Notes under the pieces: generated by a model
The model's database searches: none
What the model was told of the DNA's origin: nothing
Seen by the model: the letters and a program-made list of their open reading frames with translations, nothing else
NCBI RefSeq assembly: GCF_032884065.1
Contig: NC_088871.1
Span: forward strand, 49,870,880-49,934,879
Direction of reading: 5' to 3'
Source: Artemia franciscana
Lineage: Eukaryota > Arthropoda > Branchiopoda > Anostraca > Artemiidae
Length of the DNA stretch: 64,000 nucleotides
Shown here: in pieces, positions 27,701-36,700 of the stretch
How the letters are laid out: every line of letters begins with the position of its first letter
Numbering within the stretch: position 1 is the first letter of the stretch
Made by a program: the position numbers and the translations under genes

Positions 27701-30700
27701 TTTTGATTAGCGATTTTACAGTATGAAAAAATAAGGAAATTGACCGTAATTATTGAAATTGGGAAGTTATGTCTAGAAAGCTTCTTTCTATATTGGGCAT
27801 GGTGCTCTTTAACCTGTATTTTTTTTTGTTTAGAAGTTTGTTGGTTTATCAATACAAAATTGTTGTAGGGTAGTGTAAAAATATGATATCGACGTGCTTC
27901 GAGTCAACTCTGCCCTAACACTGGCCATCTCACTAAGCTATGATGACATGACCTTTCTAAAGTTGTATGAAAGCCTTACCAGCAGACTCTTTATAACAGC
28001 CTTCTTTTTAATGTAGCTTTGTCGCCGAGAATAACCTTGAAAAAACTTGTATATTTTCGAATACCTGTATATTGTAGATGATGTAGGTATCTGATTGGAA
28101 AGTAACAGTCTTCCCTCCTAGACTTGGGTCGGGTAAAAATGTTGACGAAATGGATAAATTCTTGAATGTTTTGAGAATTGAGGGTGCGAGAAGAGGTTTG
28201 AAAACTAAGGTTTTGAAGACTAAGTCGCTTAAATTATGAGCCAATAAGGAATAAGACTGGATACTAAGAACCGTATACCATGTATTTTGAGAGTTACCAA
28301 GTGCGGTAGCTTCAATTATCTACGCATGACTTTTGTAAGGATGTAAAAAGTAAAACAGCCAATAAACAGGGTATTTTTCAGGGTTGGAAAGAGTTTAGAA
28401 AAATGAAAAGATAGATCTCAGAGCTAATATTACGCTGCTAGAACGGTAACGACAGCAGTCAAGCATGGTTACGTGACGTCTGTGCTTCGAAAGGGTGTGA
28501 AGATGCGTTTGAGTTTTTAACTGAAGAATTGCCAATGTTGCGTCACATTTGCGGATGATGGACGATAGGCTGTCAAAAGTGTATTTTCTGGCAATTCAAG
28601 TGGGTTCAAACAAAAACCGGCCATCTTCAAACAGGGGGGAAACAAAACAAAATATAGCAAAATAACAAAATATAGCAAAACAAAATAATAGGAAGCTCAA
28701 ACAAAAACTGATAGTCTTGAAATAGTGGGAAGATGTTGTAGCTAAGAATCTAAACAAAATTAGAACTTGAAGGAAGTAAAACTTGAAGCTCTGAAGAGGA
28801 TGGGGTAGAGGACGAGCTCTCGCAGTTATATTCGCCTTAGTTAAATTGATGCCGCTATAAGCTTCCAGTAAAAGAAGTTTATAATACAGGTATGAACTAT
28901 TTGTATCAGCCGCTTTTCCTATTAGCTAGTTGTGGGATGCAATTTTGTCTTTCCTGATATTAAATCTTTTCGGCAATTGGTTAAGCTAGTACCTACAAAA
29001 CTAGATGAGTATCATATCAACAATCAATACATTTTGAATGTACTGATGAAGGCCTAATTGTCCGCTGATGTCAAATGTTTCACGCCATCAATCCTATGCT
29101 TGTACCTCCTCTGTCTAAAGCTAAAATTGGACTAGATTTATGGATTACAATATGCCTTTTAACAGAGATTTGAACTTATTACTGATTTTGATTACGTTGT
29201 ATCGGTTGTGCATTTGGCTTTGATTCGATTTTCTGATGAAAAGATACAGATAAACTGCGGTTTTGTTGGTTTACTTGCGTATGGAATTGGTACATGGTGA
29301 GTATGGCGAAATTAACCTCTAAAAATATTACTTAATGCTTGATGGCAAACCAGTTATCTATCATTTTTCTCCTTAATCCTTAGTTTTTGAGAGTCATAGA
29401 GAGGAAGAGTGAGGGATGGAAGAAATAGAGATAGAGAGAGAGAGATGAATTTTTTTTTTTACAAAAAGGGCTGTATCCTTAGCTACTGAAAGCTAATTCT
29501 CTCTCTCTCTCTCTCTCTCTCTCTCTCTCTCTCTCTCTCTCTCTCTCTCTCTCTCTCTCTCTCTCTCTCTCTCTCTCTCTCTCTCTCTCTCTCTCTCTCT
29601 CTCTCTCCTCTCTCCCTCTCCCTCTCTCTCCCTCTTTCTTTCTCCCCCCTGTCTCTCCCCCTCTCCCTCCCTCCCTCTCTCCCTCCCTCCCTCCCTCCCT
29701 TCTTTGTCCATCCCTCTCGCTGTATAATCTGTATATTTTTTTGTTAATTTTCTTAATTCTGTAAGATATTTATCTTCCTTTCATTCTTTTCTCATATTTA
29801 GGTCTGTGAAAAGCAAGATGCTGCCCAAGAAACTATAGGAAAATCAATTATTTGCACTAAAATTTTGCGGAAGCTTGTGGTGCAAGGTGTGCGTGAACCC
29901 TTAAGAGACACTCGTATATGCAGGTTCGCTGAGGTTTTATTTGAAAAGATAAAAACGCTTCTTGAGATAAGTACGAGTCACTTTTTATCTCTTCTTTTTT
30001 CGTTTTATAGTTTTAATCGTTTGTTCTACTCTATTATAGTAAATAAATAAATATTTCAAATTTGCGAAAGATTGTGTAAAATACAAAAACAATTAGCATT
30101 TAAAAGTCTAAAATATACGGAGAATATTTCATCTTCGAAGGAAATGAAAAAGTGCCCAAGTTATGGTTTCTCTTGATAACTAAGTGAAAAAATTTAACAA
30201 AAGTCTTAATCAAGACTATCGTGAAAAAATGATTGTTTCTATCTGAATTTATTCTAATTCATCACGGATTAATATCTATCAGATTTTTCTACTTGAATTG
30301 AAGCCCTTCTCTGAGGCCCTCCCGCCAACTCACGAAAATGTAAGATTGGAAGTAAAAGCAAATTTTTTTAGTCCCCCCCCCAAATTGCCACAAGTGGCTT
30401 AAACCAAAGCAAAGAATACTTTAGATCTTTGTGGATTAATTGCTAAAATAGACTTGGAAATGACCTTTTTAATGTTTGATTTCTTTTGGACTCTGGTATC
30501 CCAATTTGCTGCCATCTGGCCGCTGGCAGGAAAGTGACCAAACAAGAAATGGAATGTAAAACTTGTGATAAACAAAAACAGCAAAAATGACACTTAGGAA
30601 ACTTAGCAAACACTTAGCAGAAATTTTACATTGACAAAAATATAGTGTCGGAAAAGTATTTCCTTGATTACAAAAATTACTGCTATTTCCTAATCTAATT

Positions 30701-33700: not shown

Positions 33701-36700
33701 GTAAGGCGTTCGGAAGAAGTTTTCGAGTTTTTCTGAAGGTGAGCACAAACGAGGAGACAGTTAGTGCAGGTGAACGTGCTTTATGGTCCATCTATGGATA
33801 CAAGAGTAATGAAGAACAAATTCAGCTTGCTATTATATCTTCCAAAAGAAGGTCTCAAGGTCTCAATATCCCAAAAAATTTTACCTCTTTGAGACTTGCA
33901 ACCCACATGTGTGTCTGCAAGGTTTCACTGGCCGTGTATCTATCACCTGGTTCAAAATTGGAGCAAAAATAGCTGTATTGACCCTCTTCAGTGGGGATTC
34001 AGGTGAAACAGTCTTAGTTCTTAATATGTCTGATTTTCCCTTGTCTGAAGTCCTTATTTAATAAGTCTTTTCCCCTTATTTTTCATCTACTGTCAAGAAA
34101 ACCCTTGAAAGAACTCCTTTTTTGGCTAGAATTGGCTATTTCGCTAATTTTTGGACTTTTTACCTTCATTTCCATTTCCTACTACCTTGGTAACCTCATA
34201 GAAGACATCACTTTCTATGCATTAATACGAACTGAACTTTTTCGCTTTTTGCCCCCTTCTCTGTACTTTAAGGGCAAATTTGACCCATTTCACCTCGGTG
34301 TCGTGATGCTGATTTTGGATATGTTAATGAGCTTATTTTTCTTCATGAAGTGGTATAAAAATCATTTTAGCTGCAATTTGTTCAAGGTCTAACCGTAATT
34401 TGACCGTACTAAATATAATTGTTCTGGCTAAATAAGTGGATAGATTATCAAAAATTCAATAATATAAATATTTTGTCCTCTGTGAGGTGCACAGAAAAAT
34501 TCGTCGCAAAATTGCAAGTCGAGGAGGAAACATAAGCCTTAATCGTGTGAATTTTACACTGTTTATAGGAATTTTTTGCACTAATCCGGTAAGAATATCT
34601 AGCTCTAGTAAATGTTGATTTGCACTTTTAATAGCGATTGGGTCCCTTTTCTCAATTTCAACAAATTTGGTTCTGTGGAAACTCTAATATTAATGAATCC
34701 TTTAGCAAAAAAAAATATTGTTTGGCAACAATTAATTAGAAGTTTAGGAAATAGCAGTAGTTTTTGTAATCAAGGAAATACTTTTCAGACACTCCGTATT
34801 TTTGTCAACGTGAAATCTTGGATTAAAAAAAAAAAAAAAAAAAAAAAAAAAAATCCGCAAACACATTATTATATACAGTAGCAATATCTAGTATATCATT
34901 ATGAGACCATTTAAAATTGAGTGAACTGAAGCAGACAGATTTTAAGCAATATTTCTAAAGTTTTTTTAATTTACAGTATTTTAACAGTATAATCTTACTA
35001 TATTCCACAAAAATACGACAAGCTGCTGACTACCAAAAGTTTATATATAAATAGATCAATACATACCAGACTTTCAGATTCTCAAACATTGTTTTGTTTG
35101 TTGTTGTTTGGCTTGATAGTTGTTCTGTTTACTAATCGCCAAACATTGTGAACTTCTAATCGCCAAACATTCCACATACATTGGAGATGATTTGTCGAGA
35201 TGACTATGCATCTTAGACTAAAAAAGCACCATAGATGGGCTCTAGATCACTACCTTTATTTGAGTTAGAAATATTTTATTCTTTGCAAAGAAAAAAATTT
35301 GAATATACAACAAAACTAAATTGACAGAGAATCTGATTCTTCTCAGCTACTATTAATTACAAATTGTAATTTGTAAAATTCACAAAACACATTTAACATA
35401 ATTCACAACAAGCTTCCTTTGTTGAAATTTAATCGGTTACCTATAAAACAACGTAAAAACTGAATAAGCTAAACAAGTTCAGAAGGTATGTACATTTAAA
35501 AATATGAGAGTTTGTGTATTTTTTTTGTTCTTGAAATTTATAACTGTAAATTCAGCAACATTTTGCTTAGAAGAAGAAGAATATTGTGCCACCTTCATTA
35601 AAAATTCATCTTACATTTGGGCAATGTTAAAGAACTCAAGACTTTGAATGAACGCAGTTAATGAACCTTCTAAGCCAATGGACCGGAGACTATATTTGAC
35701 CCGGGAGTAATTATTTTGTTCTGTATAAATATAATTTGTTTTAATTTTAACACTTTAGTTTTGCTACTGATGATGATCACTGAAGTATATGATCGAAATA
35801 TGCAGTAACGTTTTTATCTGTTTTTCACTGTCTATTAAATGGACCTATCCCTATTGGAATTCTTATTTGTTTTGTCATAGAAAGGCAGTGTGGTTTTGGA
35901 AAAAAAAATACTTGGGAAAACATGACTGTTTACTAAGTTTTGCTATTCTATTGGTTATAAAATTCTTTAATTTACCACAGATTATGACTGCAAAGTTGAT
36001 TTATCATTTCAGCTTAAAAAAAGCTTATTAAAAAATGTATCTGGTCACATGAATTAAAAATGAATGTGGTGTGACAATTGATGAGAGGGATAAAGGCAGA
36101 GAGTAATAGGACTTAATTCGTGCGCGTTTAAATATTTCCAAATAACTAGCTTTTACTTTTTAAAGCTAGTTAAAAAAAAGTTAATTTCTGCTTTCTTCTG
36201 AAAAACTTAAAATAATTAACTAAAAAATATAAGGCTTTCTAGATTGAAAATTGTCTTTAAAATCTGCCAAGTACATCAATATTACACATTTTTGATCTCT
36301 CGACCCATTTTAGGTCTATTCACAGCCATAAACCGCGATTCTCTTTGGTTTTCTCCTGGGTGTTTCAAAATTATATAGTTTTTGAAACTCTATCCCATTT
36401 TTGTCAGTGTTGCCACTTGTACCATTAAAATAAATAATCAAAAATAATCAGTTGAATTTGACACCGATTTTTGTCCGTAAAACTTCAGATATTAGCTATG
36501 TGTTGATTCCCAAGTTCGACTACACCTTCGAAGGAAAGCACACCTTCTTAAGCTGTTTGTGACTCATTTTTTAGCTTATTATTTGCTGGTTTTTCACTGG
36601 CATTTCTTTTTTTTTACAATGGCCTCCGCTACTAACAAATTCTCTATAACTGCATATGGAGAGCTTTTGGATTAAAAATTGAATTCTCAGATTTTCCTAA

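Follow-up and report, generated by a model that had tools for sequence, protein, structure and literature searches.

A decayed, probably AcademX-type DNA transposon copy in Artemia franciscana and the low-copy repeat on either side of it

We analyzed a stretch of 64,000 nucleotides from Artemia franciscana (NCBI RefSeq assembly GCF_032884065.1, contig NC_088871.1, positions 49,870,880 to 49,934,879 of the forward strand; hereafter the window, with positions counted from its first base), in which a decayed open reading frame (ORF) lies within two nested pairs of inverted repeats. The element that carries the ORF spans about 31096-34411, because the inner pair is the one that other copies share and similarity among the copies stops there. 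It is very probably an AcademX-type cut-and-paste DNA transposon, present here as an old copy with internal deletions; the placement in Academ is made by described traits. An earlier note on this DNA had instead taken the outer pair, here called the outer arms, and an 8-bp direct repeat beside them for the ends of an undescribed transposon.

Terminal inverted repeats and outer arms

The inner inverted repeat, which the earlier note lacked, is weaker than the outer one and pairs 31109-31239 with 34240-34394. Its local alignment score is 53, compared to a maximum of 35 in 500 shuffles, and it is common to other copies of the ORF. When we compared 14 related ORF loci, reading 1.5 kb to the left and right of the motif, seven matched the right-end segment, with matches ending at 34392-34411, and the other seven had no match to it. 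A genome search with 34150-34411 gave at least 40 matches, itself included (40 scored of 93 candidates; all genome match counts given here are lower bounds, as only the best candidates were scored). Similarity stopped at 34391-34411 in all 11 non-window loci fetched with this query and read for 1.5 kb beyond it, and part of the inner left repeat was matched in reverse in every one of them (in L067, only 31290-31379). Two of these loci, L060 and L064, also belong to the 14-locus set, where they are labelled L006 and L010. Both inverted ends were visible in L040, which contains the ORF, and in L069, which showed no protein match; the left end of L040 matches the window directly at 31084-31234 and 31251-31438. 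The aligned right ends start with TAGTA or near it in several copies, including that of the window.

A transposase match was present within the stretch read in 7 of the 11 inner-repeat loci; the four with none may be deleted derivatives. We also observed the inner terminal repeat in L058, L059, L066, L067, and L069, where the stretch read shows no transposase match; these loci may be non-autonomous members of the subfamily to which the window copy belongs. Two near-identical old copies, L012 and L013, lie in opposite orientation about 160 kb apart on contig C1; the flank bases seen are identical, and the pair looks like an inverted segmental duplication.

The inverted outer arms described in the earlier note are real: they are 87% alike over 130 columns, and their local score of 171 is far above chance, 500 shuffles reaching 37 at most. 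The 8-bp repeat, GCAAACAC, does adjoin both arms. That an undescribed transposon with the ORF inside it ends at these arms and this repeat is, however, scarcely credible. The arms were found in none of the 14 related ORF loci (many of which extend over only part of the right-arm place), none of the 11 inner-repeat loci with full flanks, and none of three longer ORF loci (L039-L041). Among 101 loci compared, the only carriers were those covering the window and those at a single place on contig C21 (L003/L042/L044), where the arm occurs alone. The ORF is therefore not always framed by the arms and an 8-bp duplication, and both outcomes that the earlier note had named as speaking against its proposal, armless ORF copies and an arm standing by itself elsewhere, were observed.

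The left outer arm has three genome matches, namely itself, the right arm, and the contig C21 place, and a 401-base query running outward from the right arm found only the same three. Homology between the window and contig C21 extends from 34706 to 34970, through a poly-A and the right GCAAACAC (whose counterpart on contig C21 is GCGGCCAC), and continues about 105 bp beyond the supposed duplication. Since this homology crosses the right GCAAACAC, that copy is repeat sequence and not an insertion flank; the left GCAAACAC is probably a chance match. The 8-bp repeat thus stands as an observation, and we rejected it as a target duplication on its right side. The outer arms were likewise rejected as element ends, given the armless ORF copies, the solo arm, and the homology beyond the arm, and are a separate low-copy repeat flanking the element on both sides.

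A possible though rather unlikely alternative is a nested insertion, in which the Academ copy went into an older, roughly 0.9-kb non-autonomous element whose inverted ends are the arms. The arms start 473 bp before and finish 405 bp after the ends of the inner element, and inverted arms are usual in non-autonomous elements. However, the right inner flank matches only itself in the genome, 20 of the 21 genome matches of the left inner flank are partial, and the solo copy on contig C21 runs beyond the outer end of the arm with no inverted partner in the surrounding 7 kb. A transposase protein match was not found in those 7 kb either.

Spread of the ORF family and decay of the window copy

The ORF family, whose mobility the earlier note had suspected, has spread by transposition, as is shown by young copies that are nearly identical, have inverted ends, and are flanked by target duplications. 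An 83-amino-acid piece around the motif had at least 150 matches in the 1.27-Gb genome, there being 493 candidates of which 150 were scored; many of the matches lie in long open frames. In a young subfamily with the ends TAGTAGG...CCTACTA, five long loci have a 5397-5440-bp unit in common, their pairwise best alignments being 97.9-99.4% identical, and the young copy L034 contains a single-frame ORF of 1463 amino acids.

A genome with such young copies allows the duplication length to be read. We examined 21 of them; in three, the stretch read lacked the left end, and 18 showed both ends. Among these 18 readable copies, a 3-bp target duplication was seen in 17 and a 4-bp one in the other; permuted data gave 3-bp duplications in 2.4 copies on average and in no more than 9. 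Shared flanks of 9 bp, and thereby also of 10 bp, occurred in 0/18, and an 8-bp duplication was likewise absent from all 18, which is a further point against the outer arms as ends. The length is that of the young subfamily, the duplications of the window copy, L040, and L069 not being readable. Shorter loci resemble internally deleted versions of the 5.4-kb unit. As a side observation, the deleted young elements L025, L026, L027, L028, and L033 share one junction, with about 1.7 kb lost, the pattern expected of spreading non-autonomous derivatives.

The window copy is a dead, old, internally deleted relic. The earlier note's single decayed ORF between the arms was borne out by tblastn: amino acids 403-1389 of the 1463-amino-acid protein P0001 aligned in six blocks in different frames, and P0002 and P0003 contributed a seventh block at 32625-32732. 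These seven blocks contain 19 in-frame stops, and nothing in the window aligned with amino acids 1-402 of P0001. Of 13 acidic positions of P0001 that we checked, 10 fall in aligned window blocks, and four of the 10 (448, 612, 1117, and 1213) are changed. Pfam gave no match for three pieces of the window.

Predicted folds and placement in Academ

The earlier note had proposed a look for an RNase H or other nuclease fold, and models of two relatives predict both a DDE/RNase-H transposase fold and a second, EXO1/FEN1-type nuclease fold, with the conserved acidic residues present in the family. Sequence and alignment place zinc-finger-like Cys/His clusters at the N-terminus of the intact protein, which ends in a Cys-rich, CXC-like tail. 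The DDE/RNase-H domain carries a helical insertion; its likeness to known transposases was seen with VIA-align, Foldseek having given no match below E 0.2 for the DDE model. This fold with its insertion is common to the transposases of the P element, hAT (Hermes), RAG1, and Transib, at 7-11% identity to the present domain in the matches listed. To our knowledge, none of these four has an EXO1-like nuclease; target duplications are 8 bp in P and hAT and 5 bp in Transib. The nuclease domain shares its fold and conserved aspartates with the EXO1/FEN1/XPG 5' nucleases at 12-17% identity in the matches listed, although here it is one domain of a transposon protein.

The nuclease of AcademX transposons is XPG-like. 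Academ is counted among the DDD/E transposase superfamilies in the excerpted text of PMC9587614, and that of PMC10045372 gives duplications of 3 or 4 bp for AcademX and 9 or 10 bp for AcademH, a difference tied to the nuclease of the one and the helicase of the other. The earlier note knew of no transposon class for the ORF, yet the features found here agree with AcademX as described in that excerpt: an encoded nuclease, a DDD/E transposase, and, in the young subfamily, a 3- or 4-bp duplication in 18/18 readable copies. Terminal inverted repeats are a further shared feature. Among these traits, we found no difference from AcademX, the window copy itself being internally deleted and dead. AcademH, placed in the same superfamily by the excerpted PMC10045372, differs in its helicase and its 9-10-bp duplications, a length seen in 0/18 readable young copies; the 8-bp duplication of hAT and P was also seen in 0/18.

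We weighed whether the ORF family might be a separate superfamily with Academ-like traits, and consider this very unlikely. Pfam returned no family at its cut-off in seven proteins scanned, the 1463-amino-acid protein included, and Academ appears in none of the protein names in two listings of 120 proteins each ("uncharacterized," "hypothetical," "unnamed," "5'-3' exonuclease," "Tesmin/TSO1-like CXC," and transcript or gene labels). On the other hand, the transposase, nuclease, and 3-4-bp duplications agree with AcademX in the excerpted PMC10045372, and the precomputed Pfam column assigns DUF6589 to 3/120 and 4/120 of the listed proteins, suggesting a known but unnamed family. Equally improbable, in our judgment, is a superfamily-level branch beside Academ in which a single chain combines a DDE transposase resembling that of the P element with an EXO1-like nuclease that sets the short 3-4-bp stagger. 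A single-sequence PDB search gave one unrelated match (E 0.71). In a PMC literature search, we found no mention of the motif GCDTTS or of DUF6589 and nothing that joins Academ, XPG, and transposon; the articles returned for the TSO1-like CXC domain with transposase were unrelated, judging by their titles and abstracts.

From the ends, the duplication length, and the predicted folds with their conserved acidic residues, a mechanism for the AcademX-type element can be proposed. The protein would bind the terminal inverted repeats with their TAGTA... ends, presumably through the zinc clusters. The DDE domain would excise the element and insert it into a target with a stagger of usually 3 and sometimes 4 bp; as excision proceeds or the gap is repaired, the nuclease domain may trim flaps or ends.

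A large protein family with uninformative names thereby gains a plain identity as a transposase-nuclease, and its multiplication in animal genomes is therefore transposon copy number. Models now exist for both catalytic domains. With the Academ placement, the window locus belongs to a known superfamily, of which it is an ordinary dead copy, and does not represent a new class.

Features and surroundings in the window

Coordinates of the element, its remnants, and the flanking repeat are given in Table 1.

Table 1. Features of the element and the repeat around it, in window coordinates
Feature	Position	Strand	Remarks
Left terminal inverted repeat	31096..31438	+	Begins TAGATAG; start good to a few bases; matched by 11/11 loci in reverse and by L040 directly
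Decayed transposase-nuclease ORF	31443..34003	+	tblastn; seven blocks, frame changes, 19 stops
EXO1/FEN1-type nuclease domain remnant	33184..33798	+	tblastn; motif GCDTTS in intact copies, SYDITS in the window
Right terminal inverted repeat	34150..34411	+	Reverse complement begins TAGTACGG; 11/11 loci end at 34391-34411
Outer left arm	30623..30746	+	Inverted copy of low-copy dispersed repeat; outside the ORF's element; 3 genome matches
Outer right arm and continuation	34689..34970 (arm 34689-34816)	+	Low-copy dispersed repeat; contig C21 homology 34706-34970
Left GCAAACAC	30606..30613	.	Right counterpart sits in shared repeat sequence
Right GCAAACAC	34857..34864	.	Within repeat sequence common to contig C21

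Around the element lie three plus-strand open stretches (26324-26698, 37175-37579, and 40842-41210), which resemble exons of an importin-11-type gene; Pfam (all three) and PDB (two tried) did not confirm this. If they are such exons, the element would sit in a same-strand intron. Farther away, 14100-14684 (minus strand) is an open stretch of 195 amino acids with no Pfam match that resembles the end of a LINE (long interspersed nuclear element) reverse transcriptase ORF. Several plus-strand open stretches at 59034-61110, two of which were tried in Pfam and gave nothing, resemble a decayed hAT-type transposase. Pfam had no match for 16744-17196, part of a helicase-like fragment at 16553-17196 (plus strand) that carries a 133-bp tandem duplication and resembles a Helitron.
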